Source: Primula veris (Eukaryota; Streptophyta; Magnoliopsida; Ericales; Primulaceae). Taken from it: DNA of 64,000 nt. A program made the position numbers and the translations under genes. The notes below the pieces were generated by a model, which searched no databases, had not been told where the DNA came from, and saw only the letters and a list, made by a program, of their open reading frames with translations. This document shows positions 1,786-61,803 of the stretch, in pieces; positions within the stretch are counted from its first letter, which is position 1, and the number at the start of each line of letters is the position of its first letter. The DNA lies in contig OY821743.1 in the NCBI GenBank assembly GCA_963682055.1, positions 37,165,459 to 37,229,458 of the forward strand. The letters run 5' to 3'.

Positions 1786-4700
1786 ATGAGAATGGATAGT
1801 GGTGAAGAGAGAGATTTGGGGGTTCGTTCGAATTATCTTCCTTCTCTTCCCCTCTGTCTCCTCCAGGTATATTTATTTTATTATTAATATTATGAGAATG
1901 GAGAACAATGCTGTAAGATCGGAGTAGAATGAAACCCATAATATGATATATGATATATATTGATATATGATATATGATCTGATCTGATCCATCTTCTTTA
2001 ACCCTTAATACACCACCCCCACCCCCCCGTTATTTTATTGGATCTCTCTCTCTCTTTTTTTTTTTACTTTCCTTTTTTCTTTTTTATATTATTATTATTA
2101 TTTTTGACCTTACTTTGCTTTTATTTTACCAGATCAAACCCTACATTATTACATTCACTCAACTCTCTCTTTGTTTTATTATTATTATTATTATTAGTTG
2201 TGGTTTTAGATAATAGATTATATATATATATATATATATATATAGTGGGGATGATGATGATGAATTGTGGTATAAATTTAAATGTAGCAGCCTGAAATGA
2301 TGGGGGAGGGTTGTGTAAAATGAGTGTAGAGAGAGAGAGAGAGAGTAAAAGGGACTGACTGACTGACTGCTCCTTTCATACTTAGGAGGGGGTAAGGGAT
2401 CCATGCCTACAAACTCCCTTTACATATTTATCTCCTTTCTAACCTCTCACCCCCAACATTATATTACACATCACCTCTTCTCTTCTAAACTATCTCTCTC
2501 TTCTTTTTTTATATTTTATACTATATATATATATATTTGTTTTCGGGTTTATGCTTTGTATCATTTAAATTACTTTTTTTTTTTTTTTTTGCCTTTTTCA
2601 CCTGCTGATCTTGTTTCAATTACTGTCCTAGTAATGGAGCTTTGCCCCTCAACCTTATTACACCCGTAAAAATATCTTCTTTCCAAAAATAACACATTAC
2701 AGTTTTCTTTTACCCTCTCTCTATCAACTTATAGAATATTAACTGTTGTTGTTGTTAAATTAGAGATGATTTACAGGTTTTCGACTTATGGTGTGTATAG
2801 TTTTATGTTTTGTTATGTTGATCGCAGATCATTTGTCTTGAGTTTCTTTTATTTTGCTTTCCTTCTAATGATCTGTTTTCAATTTGTATAGTGATCATAC
2901 GAGAGTTGGTCTGTTTATTAGTGTTAAATTGCTGCATTTCAGTCTTTCAGCTTGAGCTTCACTCAGTTTTATAGTTACTTCTCTTTCGACCTCCTTACCG
3001 CCACTTTTTGAAAAACTAATAATTGTTTTTGTCGTTATTAAACTAGAGATTATGTCCCAATTTGGTCTATCATGTTGGTCGCAGACCATATGTTGGCATT
3101 TATATGACTTTTGCTTTTTTCACAAATCTAGTTGAGATCTCTTTATTTACATGTGTATCAAAACTCAGTTTAGTAAAAAAAAAAAAAAAGCGGGATCTGT
3201 CCTGACACGTTGTATTTGCAGTTTTCTTATTCGAATGAACCACATAATCATAAGAATATGGGTAATAACAACAATATCGAAGTTGATTTTGTTTCGAGCC
3301 GGAAAAGCTAAAATTGGAAAAAGACTTGGTTTTTATTAGAAGATTCGGAAATAAATCATTTTACTTCAAAAAAAGAAGTAAAGATAGATCCACTTTCCAG
3401 GACTTTTCAAACATTCAGAGCCGGATGTGCTGCACACTTGTATTATACATACTCATTTAAGCTTTAAATATTCTTTCTCACCAGGGTACGAGTGTAAGGG
3501 TAGAATATGGCGAAGCAACTTCAGCGGCGAACCCATCTGATGCTCAAATGATCGGCGAAATGTTTCCACACACATTTGGCCAGCCTTTGGTTCGATTTCT
3601 TAGTGATACTGCCGACCTCCCCTCTACGTCTCTCTCCTCTAATAACAGTATCACTCCTATCAGAGTTGGGGTCGTCTTTTGTGGGAGGCAATCTCCTGGA
3701 GGTCACAACGTCTTATGGGGTATTCACAATGCTCTCAAAACTCATAACCCTGACAGTGTATTACTCGGATTTGTAGGTATGTATTCTCTTGGCAATCTTC
3801 GTTTCTTTATAATCTGCTTCCGCATGATTCATAAAAATTTGCAGACTGTTTTGTTTGTCAATATAAAGAGAGGAAAAATACTCCCCTGGCATATTTAAAA
3901 TCTTACTGTCCCGTTTCTGAAAGTGGCAAAGAATATGTCGTGACTCTAATTTTCGCCTACTTTTTAATTTGCATTATACCTTGACAAGACAAAGGGTGAG
4001 AGTAAACTTGGAAAAATAGCAAAAACAAAGTGTAACGGATCTGTCCCCATTAAATAGTAGGAATCCACGTAATGAACATTTATTTAGGAAGGTAGGGGTT
4101 CAAAAAAAGAAACTAAGAAAGATTCCCTGTCTGATTAAGAACCTAAGTGCTTATTCATAATCATCACTACGTGGCTAGGTCCCTCTTTCTTGGTTTACTC
4201 CTATGTTATTTGTCTTTGGCGTCTTTTCACACTCCTTTACGAGGTAGTGTCGTAACTTTTCAGTTGTAACTGTTATGACAGTAACAATACTGTGCCCATC
4301 GATTTTGTTTAAGAACCATAACATTTTATTAAGTTATATTGTGGCCTGCATGGCACAGACCTACTTTCATAGTAGAAAATTTTGCTTTTGGTTATCAAGG
4401 CATTATAATTTATTCTTGAGAATCTTGTTTCACTCTTTCTTTCAGATGGTTATGAAGGGTTATCTGCACAGAAAACTCTTGAGATCACAGATGACATACT
4501 TTCAACCTATAAAAATCAAGGTAGCGCTGGATTTTAGTAACCGTTTGAATTTTCATTTGCATGCCTTCTCCCTGGAGACTCAAATTAACAAAAATTGACC
4601 ATTTTTTTCTAGGTGGCTGTGATTTGCTTTTTAAGAAAGAAGATCAAATAACGACCGCTGAGCTGGTTAACGCTGCAATGACTTCTTGTACTTCGTTAAA

Positions 4701-7490
4701 ATTGGATGGCCTTGTTATCCTTGGAGGTAATTTCCCTTTTCCCTTTAATTTTCCGAAATAAACAGTGTTTTCAGACTCCTTAACAATATGCCTCTACATC
4801 TATAGGTGTCACATCAAATAACTATGCTGCTCAGCTTGCTGAAAGATTTACGGAAGCAAAATGTCCAACAAAGGTAGCATTTAGCATGTGATTTTTTGGT
4901 AGAATATAATTACGTTCCTTATTTATCACATTGTTAAGAAGCTGCGATCATACTCATCGAAATCGTATTTATTTTCCTTTTTTAAGCTTGTTTATACTTT
5001 ATACCATGTGCTTGTTTTGTTCAAGAAATTGATTTAAATTATCCAAATTTAATGCAGTTTATTGTGATTAACATTTACGAATTACCACATTATCTTTTCA
5101 GGTGGTTGGGGTTCCTGTGACCGTAAATGGAGATCTCAAGAACCAGTTTGTTGAAACAAATGTTGGTTTTGATACCGTATGTAAGGTAATATTACTAGCT
5201 TCTGTTCAATTATTAAACTATTGTTTTTAACCAGGAACTGAACATTTTGTGTGTGGTTGTCCGTCTTGGATTCCAGGTCACTTCTCAGCTAATCAGTAAT
5301 GCATGCACTGACGCTCTATCTGCAGGGAAGGTAACAAATTAAAGTTCAAATTCATGTTTTTCAGAGGGGCATGCACTTTTTAACTTTCTATAAAATGTCA
5401 AATGTCGTGTTCGTCTCAAACTTGCGCCGCTATCGTTTATCGAGCTCTTCTTGGTTCTTCATTATCGTGAACTGCTATGTAATTTTTTTGTTTGTTATTC
5501 CATTTGCAGTATTATTATTTTCTCCGTCTCATGGGGGGTAAAGCATCACATTTCGCTCTAGAATGCACTCTTCAGTCACATCCAAACATGGTATGATTCA
5601 TCTATGTCAATTGCTCTAATGATTTTCCTATTTGGAGGCAGTATCTTTCCAGCTCTCATCACATTCGTACTGATTTAGCTACTTCCTTTTTAGGTGATTC
5701 TTGGTGAGGAGGTTTCTGCTTCAAAGTTTACTCTCTCTGACCTGATAAAACAAATTTGCGACTCAGTACAAGCCAGGGCAGACCAAGGTTTGGTGGCCTA
5801 CTTTATTTTTTATTTGTTTCTTAAAAGTTTTCTTTTTCTCTTCTCATTGTTATTCACTTTACTAACCTACCTAGACAAGTATCATGGAGTCATTCTGCTG
5901 CCAGAGGGCCTGACTGGGAGCATCCCTGAAGTGTACGCTCTCTTGAAGGTATTTATACTCTTGAATTATTAATGTGATTGTTCCTTCTTTATTACTCTAT
6001 CTAAACGAAATAACAACTTCCTTATTCTGTTACATGCTACACATGCTACACTAGTTTTGTGTTTTGCCTCCCCATGTAAAATTCAATCCATGAATATTTT
6101 GTACCTTCTCTGCTTTTATTTCTATATAAGTGAACCTCTTTTAATATGCTATGTATTGCTTATTGTGTGTCATAGGAAATTCATGCCTTGCTTGAGAAAG
6201 GCGTATCAGTTGATGAGATTCCTTCTCAACTTTCACCGTCGATATCTGCCTTGTTTGAGTCTTTACCCTCATCCGCAAGGGATAAGGTTCACCTCTCACA
6301 CAATTCTATCTTTAAGTTTCCATATTATTTCTTGTCCCCAGTCCTCATGCTTACGTGTGCTTATGTGGTTACAGCTTTTTCTCCTCCCAGAACTAGATGA
6401 TCCTGCACAATTATCTCAGGTAATGTTGTCTGAGAACACTATCGTACTAGAGAACCACATTGTTATGAAGATCATTTATTAACTTATTTCTTTTGTGCTT
6501 TCTTGCAGATTGAGACAGAGAAAATTTTAGCTCAACTTGTTGAAATAGAAATGAACAAGAGATTGGTATGTAATAATATATATAAGAACTAGATACTTTC
6601 TGAGGATTTGCTTATTATATCTTTTGTTGGCCTTACTCTTTGCTGGAAACTCAAACAGAAAGAAGGAACATACGAGGGGAAGAAGTTCAATGCTATTTGC
6701 AACTGTTTTGGTTACGAAATGAGAGGATCCTCACCTTCCAAGTTCGACTGCGATTATGCATTTGTAAGTTCTGGCTTAATGCTATTTTCCCATGTTTTCG
6801 CTAATAGATGTTCTCTTCATTATTTGATGGTTATTTTGCTTTCTGGACTAGGTTGTTGGGCACGTCTGTTACCATATATTGGTAGCTGGACTGACTGGTT
6901 ATTTAGCATCTGTTACCAAACTTAAGAATCCAGTGAATGAGTGGCATTGTGGTGCAGCTCCAATTACGGTAGGTTCTATCTTTGGGCAATATTCCGTATC
7001 TGTGTCCTGATAATATTACAAGGAGATAGTGTTGGTTCAGTTCCAATATCTGAAAGTTGTTGGATTGGTCCAGTTCTTTTGGTTTGCTAATATGCCTTGA
7101 TTTACAGAAGCGAATGTTGACTTTTTCTATTAATTTATTTAACACAGGCAATGATGACTGTGGAATCTCATGGAAAGCCTGCTTTGCATCCTGCTACTGT
7201 GGATTTGAAAGGAAAAGCATATGAGTATGATTCTTTTGTTGACCCGTGACACATTTTGTTATCATTGATTTGCATTCCGCATCGTAATTTCTGTTAGTTA
7301 TCTATCATGAAATACTGTTTTTCACGTTCTATAATTATCTGTTGGTTTGGTTTGCAGGATGCTGAGACAGAATGTAACAAAGTTCTTGATGGAAGATGTT
7401 TACAGAAATCTTGGACCCATCCAATTCGATGGTCCTGGCGCTGATTCGAAATCTACCACTCTGTGCATCGAGGGTGAAGATTGCGTGGGC
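1786..7490 (+). CDS. PFP alpha (regulatory) subunit-like part, 17 exons, no own stop codon
   Basis: Pyrophosphate-dependent phosphofructokinase interconverts fructose 6-phosphate + PPi and fructose 1,6-bisphosphate + Pi in the cytosol; the alpha chain is the regulatory partner of the catalytic beta chain. Exons read: 1786-1866, 3485-3776, 4446-4520, 4613-4726, 4806-4873, 5102-5185, 5277-5330, 5510-5590, 5694-5787, 5875-5948, 6176-6286, 6375-6419, 6509-6565, 6659-6763, 6852-6968, 7148-7224 and 7358 onward. All are GT-AG and in phase, giving about 554 residues (alpha chains are usually about 617). Landmarks are [23 protein letters not shown] (alpha type; beta has GGDD), [32 protein letters not shown] and FDGPGADSK. 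Oddities: a short first exon ([13 protein letters not shown]...), MGG instead of the usual MGR, about 12 residues missing between MTV and GKPALHP, and the usual C-terminus absent. Translation continues into the PPI-like segment. The family call is firm; whether it works as PFP is uncertain. Confidence 0.9.
1867..3484 (+). other. Intron 1 of the PFP-alpha-like gene (1,618 bp)
   Basis: The intron lies between exon 1, which ends in CCTCTGTCTCCTCCAG just before GTATAT, and exon 2, which begins GGTACGAGTGTAAGG after a CAG acceptor; both are phase 0. It holds (TA)n at 2219-2244, (GA)n at 2329-2345, poly-T at about 2573-2590 and a weak internal duplication (about 2740-2850 against 3020-3100). The short frames inside it are low complexity. 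No transposon was recognised. Confidence 0.7.
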
Positions 7491-7631
7491 ATTACCCAAG
7501 ATGAGGAGGTTGCGGTGGATCGAGTTACATCTGAGACTTCACCCCCTTCTCATGATGTTACACAATCTTTTGATGAAGAAAAAGCTATTGTTTCAGAATT
7601 TTCGACTCATTTAGAGTCGAGAGAAGAAGAT

Positions 7632-10600
7632 ATGGTGGCTGAGGCCGTCGAATATGTAATAGTCGATGGCAAAGACACCTTCCCCTCTTCTAGACCAGAG
7701 AAAGAAGAAGCCTCGGCAATAAAAGATCCAAATAATTGCCAAATTCAAGATACTGATCACATGAAACCAGAAAGTAATGGGGTTGATCTTTTGTGCCCGG
7801 TTGATAATGCCGTGGAAACAAAAGAGGAGGAAGCCTCTCTGACCAAATATCCGTCTGATGTCCCAAATGAAGATGAAGCTGTACAAAAGAAGAACAGTTT
7901 GAATTTAACTGGTGATTTTATGGAATCAGAAGCTAGCAGGGGTGATGAAGAAGAACTGTTGGTAACCAAATCTTCTCGTGATTCGCATTCACCAGAACCT
8001 AAGGAGGATGATCTTTTGTGTCCGCTTGAAAACGCCGCGGAATCTATATCGGAACAGGAAGCCTCAGTGAGCAAAGATATTGTGTGTCCGTTTATTAACG
8101 TTGCAGAGGGAGAGAAAACCATACTACCTATAAAACCTTGTGATTGCCGAATAGAAGATGAAATTGTACAGAAAGATTTGTCTCAAACCGACAATAATAT
8201 CCCAGAAGCAGACGAGGAAGAGGAAGCCTCGGTAACTAGACTTCCGTGTGATTGCCCAATTTCAGATGCAGTGGTACATAAAGAGTCCTCTGAAGTTGAA
8301 GTTGTACAGAAAAATTTGTCTCAAAACGACAATAATATCTCAGAAGCAAAAGAGGAAGATGAAGCCTTGGTAGCGGGACTTCCGTGCGATTGCCCAGTTC
8401 CAGATGCAGCTGTACATAAAGAGTCCTCTGAAGATGAAGTTGTACAAAAAGATTTGTCTCAAAATGACAATAATATCCCAGAAGCAAAGGAGGAAGAGGA
8501 AACCTTGGTAATGGGACTTCCGTGTGATTGCTCGATTCCAGATGCATCGGTACATAAAGAGTCCTCTGAAAGTGACAACTATGTGAACTCACCTATTGAT
8601 TTAATGACACCAGAAATTGTGGCGACTGAACTTTTGTGTGTGGTCGATAACATTGCAGAACCAGAAAAGGAAGCCTTAGTAACCGAAGATTCAAGTGATT
8701 GCCACATTCAAGATGCAGCTTTACTTCATGACTCCTCTGAAACCGCCAATAGTTGTAATTCTATTGGTGGCTTAAGAACACTAGAACCTGATGCGAACGA
8801 ACTTTTATGCCCAGTTAAGAACATTTTGGAAGCTGAAGAGGAAGAGGAAGTTTCAGTAGTCGAAAATCCGAGTGATTGCCAAGATGCAAGCTTACGGCAA
8901 GATTCCTACGAAAATGGAAATAATTTGCATTCGTCTGAAGATTCCATTAAATCGGAAACTAAGGGGGGTAATATTATGTCTCCGGTCAATAATGGTGCGA
9001 ACGTGCAAGTTAAAGTTACAAAGGCATCTGATGAAGTTGATGAAATATCCAACGGCGCAGAAGAGGATGTTGAAGTTAAAAAAGGCTCCAACGAGGTTGA
9101 TGAATTATCCAACGGCACAGAAGTAGAAGTTGCAAAACCCTCCGACGAAGTTGACAAAATATCCACCGGTACAGAAGTAGAAGTTGAAGTTGCAAAACCC
9201 TCCAACAAAGTTGATGAAATATCAGACGGCGTAAAAGTAGAAGTTGTGAAAACCTCAGAGGAAGTTAATGAAATACCCAATAGCACAGAAGGGGAAGTTG
9301 ATGTTGCGAAAGCCTCTAACAAAGCTAATGAAATATCCAACGGCACAGAAGCCATGCCTTGCCATGTAAAAGGTGGTTTAGTTCATGAAATCACAAGCAG
9401 TGTTGATAATATCGTATCAGATTCTGAAATGCCCAACTCTTCTTTAAATGGGATGAAAGTTTCTTACACTAATGCTCCAGTCATATCTCGGGCATCAGTT
9501 CAATTTGGATCTTTTGTCCCTGGGATATATCAAGCCAGTTGTGTCTCTGAAAATGATGTCTCGAAGCCACCCCCTGCAGCGGAGGAGAGTACCGCTCATC
9601 CGAAGGTTGAAAAAGATGTTGACGTGGAAGTGGAATTTGTTGTAGAAAGGCCATTCAACTTCTTAATCAGAATGCCCAAGTATTACGATGATGAACTTAA
9701 TGAACAAATCAGACAAGCTGAGGTACAAGTAACTGAAAAAACGCAAAAGAGGGAGGGCATCAAATTCCAGATGCAGGTCATCAGGGTAAACAATTCTTCC
9801 AAGGTCTTTTTCAAACTTTTAGCTATTTTTTCATATGTTTAATATGATTTGTCTGTTAAACAGGGAAACTTGCAGCAGGCTCGGAGTGATTACACAGCCA
9901 AAGTATCAGAAGAGAGAGATGCACGTCGTTTAGTTAGGTTGAAAAGGCAGGAAATTGACCATGTTCAATCCATCATTAATCGGGTTAAGAATGCCATCTC
10001 TGTCGAAGACATTGACACCAGGGTTAAGATCTTTCATCTCTTAGCATATTTTTTCTTTGCATGGACTCTTAAATCTTCATTGTCGTATTAGTATGAATGT
10101 ACTAATACTGTTGCGCACTTTATTGGCAGATAAAGCATATGGAACACATGATGCAACATGAAACGCTGCCTTTGAAAGAAGAAAAACAGTTTATTCGTGA
10201 AATCAAGCAGTTGAAGCTTTACCGTGAACAACTTTCCTCTAATATGGGTAGCCAGGATGAAGTTCGGAAAGCTATGGATGAGAGAGAACAAATTGAAGAG
10301 CAATTGAAGGTGACTAAGACTTGTTCTGAGAAACAGCAGTTTTCTTTCCACTTGTACTAATAATTAATTCGGTATTTCATTGCTGACAGTTTTCCTTTAA
10401 TTGCAGACCTTGAAGAAGGACCTTGAGCGTCTCAAGCAAAAGGTCTCAAATGCTGAAGCAATTGCTGTGGAGGCAGATACAAAGTTAAAGGAAGAAAAGA
10501 AAAAGCTAGAGAAAATATATACTCAGCATGGCGAAGCACAGAATATTCGTCAAGAAGCATACATGAATTTGCAGAATCTCCGAAAACAATTTTATGAGAA

Positions 10601-13143
10601 GGTTTGTTTTCTAATAGCATGTGTCTTTCCCTTTATTAAAAGATCAGATTAATCCTTGAATAGAAAGAACCAAGGGTTTTTCAAAATTATTATTTGGTAA
10701 AACCTGTAACAAGTCATGCTGTACTTATATGGCAAAACTGGTCCAGCAGACCAGCAAGCAGGCATGTGATGCATTTGAATTCACGGAAAAACAGTTTCCG
10801 ACCATTCATTTCTAACCTAGTTTTTTAATTGAGGGACTTGTTACTTTATTTTCCATTTGCCAATACACCTACATCCACACACAAACATACGTGCAAAGGA
10901 ATCCAATATCATTGCAATTTTGTGGGACCTTTCTTTTTGCAATATTTTGACCACCCAAACTGTGATGGAACCACACAATGCTGGAAACAGTGGTATTTTG
11001 TGTGATCAATTGTCCTCTCATGTGGTTGCTAGCTTTATGATGTTAACCCATTGATTAAAAAGATAAACAACTACGGATACTGAAAACAGTCTTTATGTGA
11101 GAATTATCTGCACAAACAACAAATACTCATCCCTGTACGTGTCCTTTTTCATTATTTATGTATATGAAATGACATGTACATGTATTAGGACTTTAATTAA
11201 AACACTTCGTTAAATGTGGTTGATAATTCTAATTTAAGATATTTCCATGTACAAGATGCAGTGTACATGTTCTTTTACTATAGCACATTTCTGTTCCATC
11301 GGGACTAGTGTTGCTGATACGTCAATGTGTACAGTGTTTCGTTGGGTATTTTAGTAACTTGCTCCAGTTTGGGGTATAAACAGTGATTTTTTTTTAACTT
11401 GCAGAATGCTCATTTTCGTACGTTCAAGGATGACACAACAGCAGCTCATAATTATGCATCAAGCAGAGATAAAGGGGCACTTCACCGTCTCTGTCTGAAC
11501 CAGGTTACCATTTTTTTACCTCTATTTTTGCTTCATGTCAGAAAAAAGGCAACTGCAACTTTTTTCTGATCTTTTGGAATTTTGATCAGGTGGAAAAAAT
11601 GATGGAATTGTGGAATAAAGATGATGAGTTTCGGAAGGAGTACGTGCGGTGCAATACAAGGAGTACTTTGTGGAGATTGAGAACTATGGATGGTCGTGCT
11701 CTTGGCCCAAACGAGGAACAAGTACCTGTAGGAGTTACCAGTTTTGTGGATAAAAGTATTACTTCGTCCTGTTATAGAGTAGGCCAGGTAAACCCCGAGT
11801 TACCACTGGTTACGCCAGAGGTGGATAAAAGGGAAAAACCATTATCAACCATAAAAGCTGCTGAAATACCAGAATTTAAATCTGTGGAAAAGGTTGTGGA
11901 ACAGACCAACAAGAAAGAGAAAGCAAAAAAACCTGCTATGGAGAACAATTCTCTGCCTGTCAACGATTCGGTGGAGAAGAAAAGAAAGATTGTAGATACA
12001 ATGGAAGAAGTGAGTAATAATAAGAAACAAACAAAAGAGGAGCAAGAGGTAAATAGAAAAGAAGAGCAATCGAGAAATAAAGAGGAAGAAGCTAAGCTGA
12101 AAGAGCAAAGACGGTTGGAGGAAACAGCCAAAGCAAAAGAGGCGTTGGAAAGGAAAAGAAAAATTGCTGAGAAGGCACAAATCAGAGCTGAGGCGCGGGC
12201 ACAGAAAGAAGCTGAACAGAAAGACAAGGTATATTTTTTCTAGATTCCTTTTTACTGTTTATGCACTTTCTATATCGAGATAATCGGATCTGTACACTAT
12301 TTTTTACGTTTGATACGATTACTTAAGAGTTAATAGACAAAACACCTCCAACCTTATGCTATTATAGTCAGTATACTAACTTTATGTTAATTATCGTTTG
12401 AATATTCTAACCTATATGCTAAAATGAACGAGTCTATCAAATCAGCAGTAAACATTACATCCCGTATTTCAAAAGGCGTCCGCCTAGGCGCTAGGCGGTG
12501 ACTATGCGCCTAGGCATTAGGCGGGCCTAGGCGGGAAAAAGGCGGCCTAGGCTGCCAATTAGGCACCAGGCAGACCCTATCCCCCTAGAACCCGCATAGT
12601 ACCTTTTGAAACCTTGATTACATCAGCCGAACTAATTACAAATCATTGTAGATCGGCCGTGATATGTTGGTGTGCAAAGCAGTAAATAGAAACCCTTGAA
12701 TATTAATAGTAGTAGTGCTCATGGTATTTTTCTTCTTTTCTCAATTTTCATTTATGGGTTGCCTACAGGAGAAGGAGAAAAGGGCGAAAAAGAAAGAAAG
12801 GAAGAAGGCAGGAGTAGGAGGAGAAGAAGGGGAGATAATCGCCCCGGCCTCAGATTTAACAGCTGTGATGACAGTGAAGGAGACTGATACCAAAGAACTC
12901 AATCCTACACCTGTGGTGGCGGTAACAGCAGCCAAGAAGCCTCCAAAAGCATTCACAAAACAGCACAACAAAATTAAAACTGCTTCTGCTCTACCGGCAC
13001 CTCTGCGTAACAAAAATAAAAGAAAATGGCAGCAATGGATTTGGTTCGTTGTTGGTGGTTTGGCTGTTATTGCAGTAGTCTTTTTAGCTAACATGGGATT
13101 ATATCCTAACCAACTTGGACGCAACCGGTACCCTGGCTATTAA
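7632..13143 (+). CDS. Proton pump-interactor (PPI) family protein, in frame with PFP-alpha
   Basis: PPI1-type proteins bind the C-terminal autoinhibitory region of plasma-membrane H+-ATPase and are held at membranes by a C-terminal segment. Exons: 7358-9785 (shared with the PFP part), 9864-10022, 10130-10309, 10407-10601, 11405-11503, 11590-12228 and 12769-13143. If translation begins at the in-frame ATG at 7632 (MVAEAVEYVIVDG, G at -3 and +4) the product is 1,266 residues; read through from PFP it forms residues 555-1867 of one protein. Order: a long acidic Glu/Asp/Ser region with two repeat families (about residues 30-600), the conserved PPI core from about 660 (VEVEFVVERPFNFLIRMP, PLKEEKQFIREIKQL, NMGSQDEV, ELWNKDDEFRKEYVRCNTRS), a Lys/Glu coiled coil, and a basic patch followed by one membrane helix (WIWFVVGGLAVIAVVFLA, about 1232-1252). 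It is far longer than PPI1 and resembles the large PPI-like proteins. The family call is firm; the start is not. Confidence 0.9.
8163..8575 (+). repeat. Three tandem 138-bp (46-codon) coding repeats
   Basis: The GTACA(G/A)AAA(G/A)ATTTG anchor recurs at 8166, 8304 and 8442, exactly 138 bp apart, so the reading frame is kept. Each unit encodes a VVQK(D/N)LSQ segment, an acidic EAKEEEE stretch, a LPCDCP-like cysteine pair and a VHKESSE end. Looser copies of the same theme (LLCPVDN, EEEAS, PSD) extend from about 7780 to 8900. Copy number is expected to vary between alleles. Confidence 0.85.
9011..9355 (+). repeat. Degenerate 60-66 bp coding repeats in the acidic region
   Basis: About six imperfect in-frame copies encode units of the form DEVDEISNGTEVEVAKPS, with a 3- or 6-bp length change between copies. 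They lie within the first, very long PPI-like exon, downstream of the 138-bp repeats. Confidence 0.75.
10602..11404 (+). other. Intron of the PPI-like part (803 bp)
   Basis: The intron separates the exon ending in RKQFYEK from the exon beginning NAHFRTFKDD. It is AT-rich, without a recognisable element or coding similarity; the short frame near 10857-11054 has no support. Confidence 0.6.
12467..12611. mobile_element. GC-rich 145-bp MITE-like element in the last intron
   Basis: A 10-bp perfect inverted repeat, TTTCAAAAGG at the left and CCTTTTGAAA at the right, bounds about 145 bp of unusually GC-rich DNA within an AT-rich intron (12229-12768). The inside is built of many CCTAGGCG / GCCTAGGC variants, which are themselves palindromic. 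No reading frame is present. This looks like a small non-autonomous DNA transposon remnant. No clear target-site duplication was seen, so its superfamily is not assigned. Confidence 0.55.
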
Positions 13144-52300: not shown

Positions 52301-53251
52301 TAAGAAAGAGTAATAAATATGTTAAAATATTCAACAGCTTAATAACTTTCCATCTTTAAAACTCTCCCACCTATCACCTAGTTGATATCCAAATGCAGAA
52401 GATAAGTTCTGGTTAACATGAAAAAAGTTTAAGTAAGAGAATAATACTAGTAAATAACCCACTTTCTCGGTTTTCTTGATAAGAAACAAGCGTATAATTT
52501 GGAACATAGAGAAGACGGAAAAGCGGCATGTCTTTTAGGAGGGGAGGAAGCAGTACCTCAAGTTTCATACGTGACAGAATCAATAAACTTTACACCCTCA
52601 AATAAAAGACAGCAGCACAAAGATAAGCATACATAGAGGAGCAAATGCACACAGCAGTGTATAGAGAGAGGAAGTAGCAATACCAAGCGGTAGAAGAAGA
52701 GGTTGAAGTTGATGATGATGTTGAGGCTGGTGATTCTTTTTAATCTTATTTGTAGAACCAGGTGGACGACCTCTTGCCTTCTTGAACATCGCCTGATCCT
52801 CTGATCCTCCTCCTGATGCCGGAGAGAACTCTCCTCCTCCGGTGGTGGTGGGCGTCTGTAGATGATGAGCAGAAGAAGAAGCGGGAATAGCAGGCTGTGT
52901 AACCAAAGGTGGTGGTGGATGAGGCATGAGAGCCAATGACATGTTTCCATCTGTCCCTTCAGCTCCACTGTACTTACGAGGCCTTCCTCTCTTCTTCTTC
53001 ATCATCATCATCTGCTGTTGCTGATACTCGTTGGTTTGAGCGCCGTTCATGTGAGGATGATGTGATGGAGGAGGAGGAGGAGAGGAGCCTGGTGGTGTGA
53101 TGGATTTGTAGACGGGTGTACCGTCATAGGCCGCGACACGCATGCTTTGTGCGGAGGAGTTGGCCTGAGAAGGTGATGATGTGGCACCACCAATATCAAT
53201 ACCAAACAAGGCGTCTACGTTCCTCATTACACCCTCATTTGATCCCGACAT
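49307..53251 (-). CDS. AT-hook motif nuclear-localized (AHL) protein, clade B / type II
   Basis: AHL proteins bind AT-rich DNA in the minor groove and associate through the PPC domain to regulate growth, flowering and chromatin. Five exons, all GT-AG and in phase: 53251-52684, 51765-51713, 51519-51388, 50665-50504 and 49684-49307, giving 430 residues. The protein has a Ser/Pro-rich N-terminus, AT-hook 1 at about 86-94 (KKRGRPRKY), AT-hook 2 at about 158-168 (KKARGRPPGSTNK), and the PPC/DUF296 domain from 190 (GSPGVGFTPHVILVKAGE, MSFSQNGPRAVCILSANG, GRFEILSLCGSFLLTE, GGLSVSLAGPDGRVLGG, VIVGSFIP). A Gly/Pro-rich then acidic tail ends in NNGNPHAMLGMPWR. Two hooks with this PPC type and four introns fit clade B; clade A genes lack introns. 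A 5' UTR intron is likely, since an acceptor CAG lies about 15 bases before the ATG. Confidence 0.95.
49685..50503 (-). other. Last intron of the AHL gene (819 bp)
   Basis: The intron runs between the exon ending LLTAASPIQ and the exon beginning VIVGSFIP. It is AT-rich and contains a close 17-bp direct duplication, TGTTTAAAGACTCGTAC, at about 49859 and 49889. No transposon or RNA gene was recognised. Confidence 0.6.
50666..51387 (-). other. Third intron of the AHL gene (722 bp)
   Basis: The intron separates the exon ending GGTATYE from the exon beginning GRFEIL. Two related stretches (about 50760-51010 and 51080-51300) share CAAACTAAAACTACTACATA-like and TTGCACATGCCAC-like segments and an AGACTTCAAGAGTT match, so part of the intron is an old duplication. 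Confidence 0.6.
51766..52683 (-). other. First coding-region intron of the AHL gene (918 bp)
   Basis: The intron separates the AT-hook exon (ending PLLLPL and the first base of the next Gly codon) from the short exon encoding SPGVGFTPHVILVKAGE. It is AT-rich and carries a Stowaway-like remnant near 52250. Confidence 0.7.
52251..52392. mobile_element. Stowaway-like MITE remnant
   Basis: The left end reads TACTCCCTCTGATTCCTGAA, close to the Stowaway terminal consensus CTCCCTCCGTTCC with a TA target dinucleotide. About 110 bp further on, CACCTATCACC pairs loosely with the GATAGGCA next to the left end. The opposite terminus is not intact, so this is a truncated or decayed copy. Confidence 0.4.
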
Positions 53252-54821
53252 CTTTCCTTGACTTTCCTGTTTTTTTTTAGATAATAATATTACTAATCAT
53301 CTTCAGTCCAAAAAAAAAAAGGAACATAGCAAAACATCAAATAAGCTAATTATAAACCCTACTAATACTAAATCGTATATAATGATGTGAGTGAGGCGAA
53401 TACTCCCCTTAAATTACCTGATTTAAATCATAATGACTAATAAATAAATAAAAACACAATCTTCACTTTATAAGAGCAATAATTTAAAAGGTTTGAGAAT
53501 ATTAACTAATTTTCCAATTAAAATTTGAGGAAAGAAAGTAACAAAAAATTAAAAAGAGGGCCAAAAATAGCTGGAAAAGAATCTTCCAAGTCGTAGGGTG
53601 TGAGAGAGAGCAACAACAACAACAAAAATCATACTTATGAATATATCAATTAACAAAGAGATCAATCCCTTTGAATAGAATAGAATAGAATAGAATACTG
53701 AATTTCAACTCCACCCCGATCTGTTACCTAATGTTCTACTACTCTCCTCCTCCTCCTCCTCCTCCTCCTCCTATATATATATATATATACTGCATTTGAA
53801 TATAATTATAAATATAAAAAAACAATAACTCCACTACTACTAAATTAGGAGGAGAGAATCTTACTAGTTTATTTGATTGAAGAGATGAAATGTGCGAAAT
53901 AATACAATTAATAAATAAAACACACGGAAAACACTCAAAAGACTTTATTTATTTATTTGTTTGTTTGTTTGTACTTCACTCCATAGAGTTTACTAATCTG
54001 TATGTATGTATGTATGTATGTATGTATAGTGGTGAAGAGTTAGTTTACTAGGGAGGGAGTAGTATATATATATATATATAAAGTGGTAATAAAAGTAATT
54101 GGGAATATATTTACTACACCTTTACTTAAGTTAATTCTATTTCATTCACCCGCTCCCTTCCTTTATTTATTTATTTATTTATTTATAATTTACGGAAACT
54201 ACTTTTTCACACCCTCTTTTATCTTATCTCCTCCCTCCGTCATAGAGAGAAGTCATGGGTTTCAAACCTCCAACCCCCCTCCCACCCTATATATATATAT
54301 ATATATATCTCTTACCACTATTAACACACTAGTTTTACATTTTATTAATACCAACTAGTTTATTTTTAATTAAATGGTGTTTTATGTATTTTTCTTAGTG
54401 ACTGACTACTATTAATTTATTTATTTGGTTAATTTTTTATACAATCAATATTTAATGATAGTTGTTTGTCTAAGTAAAGAGACGTATGAATTGAATTGGT
54501 TAGCTACTAACAGAGTAATAAAAAGAAAATAAAAAACGTGGACTTCCCAGTCTTAACGTAAAGTTTATACCCTATAAAGTATAAAGTAATGAAATGAAAG
54601 TTTTTAATTAAATTGGTTAAATAATAATAATAATAATAGAGGGGATGAAGAGTAATACAAAAGAAGAAAAGAAAAAAACATGACCTCCCTCCCCCCATGT
54701 GGGACCTTGTCAAATAAAACACTGACTATATTATTTTTAGTTGTTTTTTCTCTCTCTATATATACATAATAGTCTTAGTATAGTATAGTATTATCCTCCC
54801 TTCCGGACAGCCGCAGCAGCA
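53252..54821. other. Upstream region of the AHL gene with dense microsatellites
   Basis: It contains AGAAT pentamers at about 53676-53696, a CTC trinucleotide run at 53744-53772 followed by AT at 53772-53789, a TATG run at 54001-54027, AT at 54063-54081, TTTA at about 54163-54186 and AT at 54288-54308. The CTC/AT block lies about 500 bp upstream of the AHL start on its coding side and is probably in the promoter or 5' UTR. No coding sequence was seen. Confidence 0.6.
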
Positions 54822-54921
54822 ATAATAATAATAATAAAAAAAAATAGATGGAGGTGTAAAGACGGCACCCTTCTTCTCCTCTTCATCAGGCGGAAGACGG
54901 TGTTTGTGGTGGTGATAAATG

Positions 54922-54960
<39 letters not shown>

Positions 54961-55133
54961 GAAGTAGATGGAGGTGAAAAGACGACGCCCTCCTTCTCCT
55001 CTTCATCAGGCGGAAGACGGTGTTTGTGGCGGTGATAAATGATAATAATAATAATAAAAGAAGTAGATGGAGGTGGAAAGACGGTGCCCTCCTTCTCCTC
55101 TTCATCAGGCGGAAGACGGTGTTTGTGGTGATG

Positions 55134-55175
<42 letters not shown>

Positions 55176-55342
55176 GAAGTAGATGGAGGTGGAAAGACGG
55201 CGTCCTCCTTCTCCTCTTCATCAGGCGGAAGACGGTGTTTGTGATGGTGATAAATGATAATAATAATAATAATAGAAGTAGTTGGAGGTGAAAAGACGGC
55301 GCCCTCTTCATCAGGCGGCAGTCAGTGTTTGTGGTGGTGATA

Positions 55343-55394
<52 letters not shown>

Positions 55395-55773
55395 GAAGTA
55401 GATGGAGGTGGAAAGACGGCGCCCTCCTTCTCCTCTTCGGAAGACGGTGTTTGTGGTGGTGATAAATGATAATAATAATAATAATAATAAAAGAAGTAGA
55501 TGGAGGTGGAAATACGGCGCCCTCCTTCTCCTCTTCATCAGGCGGCAGTCAGTGTTTTTGGTGGTGATAAATAATAATAATAATAATAATAATAAAAGAA
55601 GTAGATGGAGGTGGAAAGACGGCGCCCTCCTTCTCCTCTTCATCAGGCGGAAAACGGTGTTTATGGTGGTGATAAATGATGATAATAATAATAATAGAAG
55701 TAGTTGGAGGTAGAAAGACGACGTCCTCTTCCTCCTCTTCATCAGGCGGCAGTTAATGTTTGTGGTGGTGATA

Positions 55774-55801
<28 letters not shown>
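54822..55801. repeat. Compound minisatellite: about 85-bp core plus variable (AAT)n, nine copies
   Basis: A GC-richer core (AGAAGTAGATGGAGGTGGAA, AGACGGCGCCCTCCTTCTCC, TCTTCATCAGGCGGAAGACG, GTGTTTGTGGTGGTGATAAA) alternates with AAT runs of very different length. The GATGGAGGT or GTTGGAGGT landmark occurs near 54848, 54967, 55065, 55180, 55271, 55399, 55499, 55604 and 55703. Unit length varies from about 91 to 128 bp, mainly through the AAT tract. Open frames on both strands (poly-Asn one way, poly-Leu/Ile the other) are repeat artefacts. Confidence 0.9.
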
Positions 55802-58800: not shown

Positions 58801-59575
58801 TCTCACCACCCCCATAATCTTTTATTTCTTTATATGATATGTTTTGATGGTTTTTTTACTATCATTTTCTTTATTTGTTTTTTGTGATCATAAGGTTATG
58901 TTATATGTGTGATTAAGAATTGTCTTTCTTTTTTCCTTTGCATCCCAGCTTCCCCTGTACAATTCAATCATATCCATACGTATGCTTGGGCTGTGGCGTT
59001 TCACATGCAAATTAATTAGTAGCTGACAAAAACCCATTAAAAAAAAAGTCACACATCATAAGCATGTTGAGAAAAATGTCTGATTCTTCTGCGTTGGTAA
59101 ATACTTATTTGTTTCTTTTAATTTCTTATTGGGTTGTTGAGTTGATATTTTTCTTTCTTTTAACAATGAGGTTATATATATATATGTCTGTGAAGTTGTA
59201 GTGTTACTGCCGTTGGACGTGGTGATATATAGTATATACGATGCTGCTGGAAATGACACCAAATCAGAAGTCTTCTTCATACCACTTCGACCCCGTACGT
59301 TTATACGATATTTATCTTTTTTTCAATTCAGACATAAAAAACACTAATCGCTCTACTTAGAGATGCAGTGGCTGTGCGCCGGGCCAAGCCTGGGATCCAA
59401 GTTAATTACTGCTGGAATTTTTTGTTCAAATTTTGTCTATGTATTGATATAATCTAATTTAGACTGTTGGAATTTTAGAGTTGGATTATCTATATTTAAC
59501 TAACTTTGCTTGTTTCTTGATTGGCTTGTGTGGTGGTTGGGTGACATTTTTACATAAAGTCTTGTCGTGCACAAG
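55802..59575. other. Long AT-rich spacer with microsatellites, no gene recognised
   Basis: The spacer includes TA at 56159-56184 followed by GTAC repeats (56189-56204), AT at 56588-56608, a GTAGA pentamer run at 58515-58542 and TTGTAG hexamer-like repeats at 58737-58775. The leading exon or exons of the DUF547 gene should lie in its right part. A short frame near 59241 (MLLEMTPNQKSSSYHFDP, followed by a GTACGT donor) is a weak candidate. Confidence 0.45.
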
Positions 59576-61803
59576 TATTGAGAAACGAGATTGCGTGGAT
59601 TGAGCTAGAAATAATGCATTTGGAGCGACATCTCATTTCTCTCTACAAGAATGCTCATCAGCAACCACAAAAACAACATAAGAAACTGCATAGTAGAACA
59701 CCTGATCTGTGTATTTCTCTGAAATCATATGGTTCTGAAATAGGAAGTGGGGATGCTGCTGCTTCTTCCCTGCAAGCTTCACCAATGAATTTAAAGGTCA
59801 GTGGAGAACAACTGATACGGCTTCCCTACGTAGTTAAGGTAGGATTTCCTTTTTGTCGATTAACTTAATAATTTTGTTTATTTTTCAAGTAGCCTTGTAC
59901 CTTTTCCTGTTGTTCATGTCATAATTTTTAGTCAATTAATTCATTTATTTAAGTTAATGATGCATGATCAGGAAAAGAAGGATGTTGTTACCCGTAATCG
60001 TGTAAGTCACAGCCACAGCCTAGCGGATCACCTTAGCACTTCTTCTTCCCCTAATACTTCCATTCCTCCAGATCAGCTCTCCGAAGATATCGTAAAATGT
60101 ATATCTAACATTTATTACAAGCTTGCTAACCCAGTTTCCGATAAGCATACTCAAATAGGAATAGGAGCAGGGTCTTCCAATTCTTCTTCTTCTTCTTCTT
60201 CTTCTTATTCCTCGTTCATATCTTCATCTTCGAGTAGACTTTATTCGGGATTTGTTTACAATGATGAAGATAAGTGGAGTCCTCGTTCCAAACCTAGGCG
60301 GCCCTATTGCGGAGCTGTACAAGTTTCGAACATATCAAGTGTGGATAATGATGATACTTTCCAATATGCTGCCAAGATGTTGGAGAAATTCAGGTACCCT
60401 GCTATTATCGACCATTTTCCACTTAGCTTGTAATATTTATTTTCATAGCTTGTCACCTGTTCTGCAAGTCCTTTTGTAGGTCATTGGTTAAAAGCTTAGA
60501 AAAGGTCGACCCTAGGAAGATGAATCGAGAGGAAAAGCTAGCCTTTTGGATCAACATCCACAATTCACTAGCTATGCATGTAAGCATAATTCAATTTTGA
60601 AAACAAATTTCTTCTATCTTCTTCAAACAAATTTCAGTTTTCCAAAGAAAAATTAAACGTGCAATTGCAGGATGACATGCCACTTCCATGATTTGCTTAA
60701 TTATACGACTCTTTCAAATGAAGCCAGGGTTTAAAGTAATACTGAAAAGCATCTAACATGTTCATGCATAATTAAACTAAAATTTAAAATCTTTTTTAGT
60801 CGATTTCTCGAGGTTGCTCAGCTATAACATCTTATTGCAGGCCCATTTAGCGTACGGCACACGAGATCGTGTCAAAAGTAGTTCCTTTTTTAAGGTTAGA
60901 GCCTATACTTCATGCCATCTCAAGTAAAGGTATGCATTCCGACATTGCGTAAACAGTGATTTTGAATTTTGATCCCCAGTGTGATCTTTCAGGCAACATA
61001 CAACGTGGGTGGACATTGCATAAATGCCCATATCATCCAAAGCTCCATTTTAGGGATCCATTCACACTATTCATTGCCGGTACTAATACCTTTAAATATT
61101 ATTAATTTTCTTTTCATGGAATTTGATATGTAGAATATATCCCGGTCTAAAGATGCTTGACAAGGTATATTGCATTATCAATTCCTATCGTTTGAAAACC
61201 CACGTAAAATAATATTTGTACCCTCGCAGTGGTTGCAATTCCTTCTGTCACCACGAAATAAATTCAAGATGGAAAACATGAAACATATATACGCCATTGA
61301 TTACCCAGAACCACTAGTTCATTTTGCACTTTGTTCAGGGGCATACTCGGACCCTGCGGTATATATTACTTGCTTCTTCAGCTGTTTACTTTGATTTATG
61401 ATCCCATTCTTATTGTCATTCTAACTTTTTCAAAAACTCATGCTAACTTCGATTCGTTTGGTATATGTGGATATAGGTTCGAGTGTATAGAGCAAAGAAT
61501 GTGTTTGACGATCTGAACCTTGCCATGGAAGAGTTTGCATATGCCGGCATACATGTTCTTAACGAAACAAAATTAGTGTTGCCGAAAATATTCAGCTACT
61601 ACGCCAAGGACATATCATTAGATGTTTCCGGGCTACTGAAAGTGGTTTACGAGTGTCTACCTGAGGAGGTAGAAGCTGTCACCAAGTGCTTAAATGATGG
61701 TAGTGCACCACATGATAAGCGTATTCACTGGCTATCACAAAGTTCAACATTTAGATACCTAATTCACAGGCAACTAGCTCAACAGATAATAACTAGCTTA
61801 TGA
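59576..61803 (+). CDS. DUF547 protein of the MIP1 leucine-zipper type, 5' end not resolved
   Basis: Plant proteins of this type join an N-terminal coiled coil (ternary complex factor MIP1 leucine zipper) to a C-terminal DUF547 domain; the biochemical function is unknown. Exons: about 59576-59838, 59972-60393, 60480-60579, 60841-60894, 60993-61079, 61230-61358 and 61477-61803 (TGA), in phase, giving about 459 visible residues. The first exon encodes the second half of the zipper (LRNEIAWIELEIMHLERHL). The second has a poly-Ser tract from a TTC run. DUF547 follows: NREEKLAFWINIHNSLAMHA, LAYGTRDRVKSS, YNVGGHCINAHIIQSSILG, YAIDYPEPLVHFALCSGAYS, DPAVRVY, and the end FRYLIHRQLAQQIITSL. Codon 1 at 59578 is not a real start; an acceptor (ACAAG) precedes it, so at least one upstream exon is missing from my model. 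The gene is convergent with the YjbQ-like gene. Confidence 0.88.
60183..60225 (+). repeat. TTC microsatellite inside the DUF547 gene (poly-Ser)
   Basis: A run of TTC/TCT triplets in the second visible exon encodes a tract of consecutive serines in a linker between the zipper and the DUF547 domain. It keeps the frame, so length changes would be tolerated. Confidence 0.8.

Follow-up and report, generated by a model that had tools for sequence, protein, structure and literature searches.

A probable DNA-level fusion of a PFP-alpha gene with a long proton-pump-interactor-like gene in Primula veris

We analyzed a window of 64,000 nucleotides on contig C4 of Primula veris (C4:37165459-37229458; genome of 436.5 Mb in 34 contigs). 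It carries a gene that joins sequence of the alpha subunit of pyrophosphate-dependent phosphofructokinase (PFP) to sequence of a long proton-pump-interactor-like (PPI) protein. The spliced model was rebuilt and comprises 23 exons on the plus strand from 1786 to 13143, all in phase, which encode 1,867 residues. The frame is open from the ATG at 1786 to the stop codon at 13143, and all 22 introns are bounded by GT and AG, so that the gene model proposed in a sequence-only reading of this DNA was reproduced. No disabling change was found across the 1,867 codons and 44 splice sites. Residues 1-554 are derived from PFP-alpha, and the remainder from a long PPI-like protein. Exon 17 (7358-9785) begins with PFP-alpha sequence and continues into PPI-type sequence with no stop codon between them, again as had been read; the two remaining plus-strand frames of this exon contain 38 and 99 stops. 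The nearest PPI relative, P0177, is a stand-alone Logan protein of 1,395 aa and was used as the reference for the PPI half. The features of the gene are as follows.

1786..7224, plus strand: exons 1-16, PFP-alpha-derived, residues 1 to about 510 (spliced model; 75.5% identity to the paralogue on contig C5)
3657..3664, plus strand: approximate position of canonical intron 2, which is lost here and has left 6 extra nt in frame (exon sizes)
7165..7166, plus strand: point of a 27-nt (9-residue) in-frame deletion in exon 16 (canonical 104 nt, here 77 nt)
7358..7490, plus strand: PFP-alpha part of exon 17, 133 of the 166 nt of canonical exon 18 (paralogue alignment)
7490..7491, plus strand: fusion junction, residues 554/555, precise to a few nt (end of PFP homology; P0177 alignment)
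7491..9641, plus strand: PPI-derived acidic region, residues 555 to about 1271 (homology to P0177 from its residue 285; charge)
7632..7634, plus strand: first in-frame ATG past the junction, M602, within sequence aligned to P0177 332-363
8154..8570, plus strand: 138-bp tandem repeat, three copies in frame, 46 codons each (Tandem Repeats Finder)
9033..9351, plus strand: 60/114-bp tandem repeat in the acidic region (Tandem Repeats Finder)
9642..9785, plus strand: start of the conserved PPI core, at the end of exon 17 (alignment with 27 relatives, core from residue 1276)
9864..11503, plus strand: exons 18-21, conserved PPI core, of coiled-coil type by family resemblance (spliced model)
11590..13143, plus strand: exons 22-23, end of the core, basic tail and stop codon (spliced model; charge by segment)
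13039..13095, plus strand: C-terminal hydrophobic segment, residues 1834-1852, candidate membrane anchor (Kyte-Doolittle)

To describe the junction, we aligned exon 17 with its relatives on both sides. Homology to exon 18 of both PFP-alpha paralogues of this genome stops at ...EDCVG (G554, nt 7490), 33 nt short of the canonical exon end. Internal PPI coding sequence begins at nt 7491, equivalent to about residue 285 of P0177, and no spacer was seen. Residues 555-607 aligned with P0177 285-363 across one 26-residue gap, and none of 2000 shuffles was as good. The first 20 PPI residues contributed a match of residues 555-573 to P0177 285-303, which 12 of 5000 shuffles equalled. Residues 574-607 (576-607 aligned) matched P0177 332-363, collinear with the preceding match, and here none of 5000 shuffles did as well. 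From residue 608, the alignment picks up again at P0177 564. The Actinidia protein P0185 showed a weaker match at its residues 276-319 (4 of 1000 shuffles as good), and P0189, P0181, P0186, and P0183 gave no significant match to residues 555-607 (250, 180, 889, and 522 of 1000 shuffles as good, respectively). By these alignments, the join is coding-to-coding inside both parent genes, which strengthens the proposal of an in-frame fusion of DNA.

Other placements of the two ends were compared. Residues 555-575 were considered as a diverged PFP tail, and the shuffle P values were 0.03 (residues 550-575) and 0.20 (555-575) against the C5 paralogue and 0.13 and 0.08 against the C1 paralogue. PPI sequence is the better match for this stretch, and a shift of a few residues either way is possible. 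M602 (7632) was considered as the old PPI start codon. Residues 600-640 gave no match to the N-terminal 200 residues of P0177 (shuffle P 0.43), and the sequence at M602 is homologous to the PPI interior (P0177 332-363); M602 is not the ancestral start. Merged gene models are described as a pervasive annotation error in one study (PMC12220653). A merged annotation of two neighbouring genes was rejected here, as there is no intergenic sequence and PPI homology begins at the residue directly after the end of PFP homology.

The PFP half was compared with the intact paralogues. A genome search gave three PFP-alpha loci including the window copy; the two others, on contigs C1 and C5, are intact genes with 19 exons, 617 residues, and equal exon sizes (spliced alignment with P0003). 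A genome search with the PFK family listed none of the three PFP-alpha loci and is hence uninformative about them. On C10 (32381809-33377509), six PFK-domain exon matches of 44-45.8 bits lie within 1 Mb, which suggests that a phosphofructokinase gene was amplified locally. Over 551 codons, the window copy is 75.5% identical to the C5 gene and 69.5% to the C1 gene, and P0003 is its closest protein among the best 120 of 957 matches (76% identity). The complete layout of 617 residues and 19 exons is absent from the window copy. Its exon 2, at window 3485-3776, measures 292 nt, equal to 173 + 113 + 6, where each of the paralogues has a canonical exon 2 of 173 nt and an exon 3 of 113 nt; given the six extra in-frame nucleotides, the loss of canonical intron 2 is not an exact removal. 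With this intron lost, exon 17 corresponds to canonical exon 18 of 19; the sequence-only reading had correctly placed PFP-alpha at its start and is amended in the numbering. Relative to the paralogues, exon 1 lacks 12 nt and has gained 3 nt, and exon 16 carries the 27-nt deletion. All four indels of the PFP half are multiples of three.

The PFP tail is gone, as had been noticed, and its length is 53 residues (canonical 565-617), not about 60. These residues correspond to the last 33 nt of canonical exon 18 and to exon 19. Searched against the window and nine loci, the 53-residue tail matched the C1 and C5 paralogues only. In an alignment of plant PFP-alpha with the solved PFP of Borrelia (1kzh), only residues 16-547 are covered, and 1kzh has a 7-residue gap at the place of the 9-residue deletion of the window copy. 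Since the region common to both does not include the lost tail and the deletion falls at this gap, it is plausible that the PFP half may still fold.

The PFP-alpha tree, which has many open forks, places the loci of this genome near Actinidia, Diospyros, Impatiens, Bertholletia, and Camellia. The window copy groups with P0003, P0004, and its own C5 paralogue at 100/100, and the tool warns that this row is so long that its placement is unsure. At 32 sites, the window copy shares 11 with P0003 and 8 with P0004, and there is no clear orthologue. The genera named near the window genes, both in this tree and in the PPI tree described below, belong to the Ericales.

We estimated selection on the PFP half from branch lengths and substitution ratios. 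The terminal branch of the window copy is 0.69, compared with 0.03 for P0003, 0.037 for P0004, and 0.069 for C5, and is thus at least ten-fold longer. Pairwise dN/dS was 0.195 for window-C5, 0.172 for window-C1, and 0.082 for C5-C1. A three-way split computed from these pairwise values gave about 0.12/0.32 = 0.36 for the window branch and about 0.02/0.40 = 0.06 for C5, with dS to C1 above 1 and near saturation. Of the 111 residues that do not vary among 18 plant and 3 protist-type sequences, 102 are kept in the window copy and 110 each in C1 and C5. The plant-invariant residues retained are 287 of 348 in the window copy, 334 in C1, and 346 in C5. No stop codon occurs in the PFP half, where neutral change of 0.32 per site predicts about 14 (none of 500 simulations was stop-free). 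These values suggest that the PFP half is strongly relaxed yet open. Because no stops are present where about 14 are expected and all four indels are in frame, it does not look like a free pseudogene. As nine invariant residues are changed, a working regulatory subunit is less likely, and the PFP half has probably lost that role.

The PPI half behaves otherwise. Its core is 71% identical to P0177, its terminal branch is 0.25 against 0.20 for P0177, and its identities to 26 other proteins are similar. All 33 columns invariant in 27 relatives are kept, and the core is sister to P0177 at 100/100. In the PPI tree, a clade of ten rows (100/99) comprises the fusion gene, P0177, Diospyros, Camellia, Bertholletia, Sarracenia, Vaccinium, Rhododendron, and two Actinidia rows. 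Judged from these comparisons, the PPI core evolves at a normal rate and is the part under strong selection. The acidic region (residues 557-1265) consists of 24% aspartate and glutamate and has a net charge of -114. The pairwise differences among the copies of the 138-bp repeat, by codon positions 1/2/3, were 8/4/5, 7/4/5, and 7/2/7, and the acidic repeats look weakly constrained. The segment of residues 1834-1852 has a Kyte-Doolittle mean of 2.38, the highest 19-residue value past residue 560 in this test of sequence, and is a predicted C-terminal tail anchor in the membrane.

The PPI half lacks a start codon and the first approximately 284 residues, and the PPI promoter has presumably been lost with them. 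P0177 1-560 gave no match in the window or in seven other loci, with sensitivity limited in this fast-evolving region. P0177 1-577 gave no match genome-wide; the region is acidic and fast-evolving, and absence of a match is not proof of absence. A genome search with the PPI part gave eight matches, seven in the fusion gene and one weak match on C7, and a search with P0177 gave ten, eight in the fusion gene and two weak ones on C7. No second long PPI gene was found genome-wide with these two queries, in a search that scores the best candidates only. The weak match at C7:11233025-11235623 may be this genome's own relative of PPI1, a proton pump interactor of Arabidopsis. Pfam scans of the PPI regions gave nothing above the cut-off. 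PF27883 is listed by the protein database for 115 of 120 PPI proteins (best 120 of 328), and among these matches, a SYVFV motif lies within the first 250 residues, in the portion that the fusion has lost, in 69 of 120 and a MTAE start occurs in 27 of 120.

We searched protein databases for the same arrangement in other organisms. The lists comprised the best 120 of 957 PFP-alpha matches, 55 long proteins (1,027-3,267 residues) with a PFP part, and the best 120 of 328 PPI matches; the PFP-alpha and long-protein searches scored only the candidates that shared the most words. None of the 295 listed proteins (175 for the PFP half and 120 for the PPI core) matches both halves. In the long-protein search, PFK is the only listed domain in 54 of 55 proteins, with 31-43% identity, and those assigned to an organism come from protists. 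P0175 (Tanacetum coccineum, 1297 aa), called reverse transcriptase domain-containing in its source, combines other domains with PFK at 52% identity over 48% of the PFP part. P0001 (Ilex paraguariensis, 880 aa) is a PFP-alpha model with duplicated segments and is probably an annotation chimera; its tail resembles the start of a glycosyltransferase. A literature search over titles and the openings of abstracts, with subscription journals mostly outside its coverage, gave no PFP-PPI fusion.

PFP-alpha and PPI-like genes lie on one contig in 12 of the 22 species common to both lists, where contigs of identical size were taken as the same contig and further paralogues may be unlisted. Locus tags of linked genes are three or four apart in Cinchona (ACH5RR_035369/_035372), Escallonia rubra (RJ640_020654/_020650), and E. 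herrerae (RJ639_008920/_008916). In Arabidopsis, the two genes are presumably separated by BRR2 (At1g20950, At1g20960, and At1g20970). Linkage of the parents in 12 of 22 species makes a deletion between linked genes a likely origin of the fusion.

The gene ends approximately 110 kb from the telomere of C4, where the contig terminates in a TTTAGGG array with 479 motif copies within the last 7 kb. A 32-kb satellite array (window 16667-48506) of a 118-bp unit, in about 269 copies with 92% matches, begins 3.5 kb downstream of the fusion gene. Arrays of about 100-120-bp repeats with long AAT runs lie at 54821-55795. At 52598-53296 on the minus strand and 59545-59868 on the plus strand, reading frames gave a borderline AT-hook match (17.4 bits, cut-off 17.4) and a MIP1-type leucine zipper match below the cut-off (25.9 against 32.2). 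Upstream neighbours (L035 8530-8943 and L052 6514-7089) include the end of an Mlo-family gene, some 1 kb ahead of the window, and the C-terminal domain of a glyceraldehyde-3-phosphate dehydrogenase.

We propose that this locus is a DNA-level fusion gene, likely expressed as a single 23-exon unit, in which the PFP half would give a promoter and an N-terminus to a selected PPI protein. PFP-alpha and long PPI-like genes would once have lain near each other, as in several other eudicots, and duplication of PFP-alpha may have released the local copy from its duty. A deletion would then have taken the PFP-alpha end (53 residues, last intron, last exon, and terminator), the intervening DNA, and the PPI promoter, start codon, and first approximately 284 residues, and joined both coding sequences in frame at 7490/7491. 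The PFP-alpha promoter would now drive one 23-exon transcript for a 1,867-residue, tail-anchored protein, with the PFP half kept as a new N-terminal extension. This model explains why the join is sharp, why PPI has no start of its own, why our searches gave no second PPI gene, and why a PPI core that evolves at a normal rate stands beside a PFP half that is relaxed and yet open. On present evidence, the fusion gene is genuine and clean, and fusion genes as such are already known in plants.

Several observations weigh against this proposal. The junction was placed by P0177 and, weakly, by one Actinidia protein, and the P0177 match is gapped, by 26 residues inside it and by about 200 ahead of the point where homology resumes. 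In 10 of the 22 species, including Diospyros and both Actinidia, which lie near the window genes in the trees, the listed PFP-alpha and PPI-like copies do not share a contig. The fusion is absent from all 295 listed proteins. Part of the relaxation of the PFP half may have preceded the fusion. Translation may also begin at an internal start in exon 17.

Such a start belongs to the view that the locus consists of two units: a truncated, dying or dead PFP-alpha gene, and a PPI gene for which intron 16 or exon 17 has come to provide a new promoter, with translation from an internal ATG such as M602. A normally constrained PPI core beside a relaxed PFP half is expected if only PPI is made, and M602 has G at both -3 and +4. 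However, the ancestral PPI start and its upstream DNA are gone in a coding-to-coding join, M602 itself lies within sequence homologous to the PPI interior, and the PFP half has neither its own stop codon nor its final exon. The PFP half is also open, with intact splice sites and no frameshift, where neutral change would leave stops. Two units would require an extra event and explain the open PFP frame less simply, and we regard them as unlikely. A decaying locus, in which a recent accidental fusion is turning into a pseudogene, would fit the fast PFP half, the absence of the fusion from other listed proteins, and the position about 110 kb from a telomere and 3.5 kb from a 32-kb satellite. It is highly improbable, as no codon or splice site is disabled, the PPI core evolves at a normal rate with its 33 invariant columns kept, and no other long PPI gene was found as a substitute. 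An assembly artefact joining two loci is most improbable of all. The join is known from the assembled contig alone, but it lies inside one exon, in frame, on a contig that reaches the telomere; P0177 1-577 gave no match elsewhere in the genome search, and neither the window nor the flanking stretches examined contain the PFP tail.

The function of the PFP half allows further readings. The sequence-only reading had placed sugar-phosphate metabolism beside the H+-ATPase, in a protein whose PFP regulatory domain, held at membranes and at the proton pump, would join sugar-phosphate state and proton pumping. The kept frame and the 102 of 111 deeply invariant residues that remain speak for it, as does a fold that may survive the loss of a tail beyond the part matched by 1kzh (which ends at 547) and of nine residues at a 1kzh gap. 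This coupling was not supported, and we consider it very unlikely: the PFP half is relaxed, with a branch at least ten-fold longer and changes at nine invariant residues, where each intact paralogue has a single one; two intact PFP-alpha genes are left; and in the literature consulted (PMC11394911), H+-ATPase binding is reported for PPI1 only, most of which is placed at the endoplasmic reticulum (ER). It is improbable, though somewhat less so, that the fusion provides a membrane-tethered PFP-like domain whose retained fold acts, at the membrane on which the PPI core works, as a sensor or scaffold (e.g. for sugar phosphates or PFP beta) and links cytosolic sugar-phosphate state to PPI function. 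With enzyme regulation left to the intact paralogues, the fold would be free from that duty. Should the PFP half still be in use, the gene would provide an unusual physical link from glycolysis to a membrane protein. Under the deletion-fusion model that we favour, the one long PPI gene that our genome searches gave seems to persist inside the fusion, probably under the promoter of a metabolic gene and with an eroding front half. The locus would thus offer a natural test of promoter capture and of the need for the N-terminal part of long PPI proteins.

We compared the fusion gene with known systems. It shares residues 1-554 and most exon sizes with plant PFP alpha, for which nineteen exons are reported in cassava PFPA genes (PMC8365977). 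It differs in the loss of the 53-residue tail together with the last exon, of an intron, and of nine residues encoded by exon 16, in its relaxed selection, and in its continuation into PPI. With the long PPI-like proteins of eudicots, it shares the acidic region, conserved core, basic tail, and C-terminal hydrophobic segment, and differs in having PFP in place of the first approximately 284 residues. We take these long proteins to be of the At1g20970 type, and some sources name them proton pump-interactor 1. By source names, Arabidopsis PPI1 (At4g27500, 612 aa) is of the same broad family as the PPI half. PPI1, about one third the length of the fusion protein and with no PFP part, is described in PMC11394911 as an H+-ATPase-binding coiled-coil protein with a transmembrane domain, located mostly at the ER. 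Binding and stimulation of the plasma-membrane H+-ATPase, as reported for PPI1, are not known to be a defining property of the long PPI-like proteins. Double-length protist PFPs resemble the fusion in having a PFP domain in a protein of more than 1,000 residues, their double nature being taken from length, and differ in that none of the 55 matches the PPI core. Among 69 expressed fusion genes of rice, both parents are still in the genome for 35 and one parent for 19, according to Zhou et al. 2022 (PMC9199173). As in the type II fusion genes of that study, one parent is detectable elsewhere in the P. veris genome and the other is not, with two PFP-alpha genes elsewhere and no second long PPI gene found. 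In the same study, 18 of 19 type II genes are attributed to a duplicate inserted beside the other parent, whereas the parents of the P. veris fusion were probably already linked.

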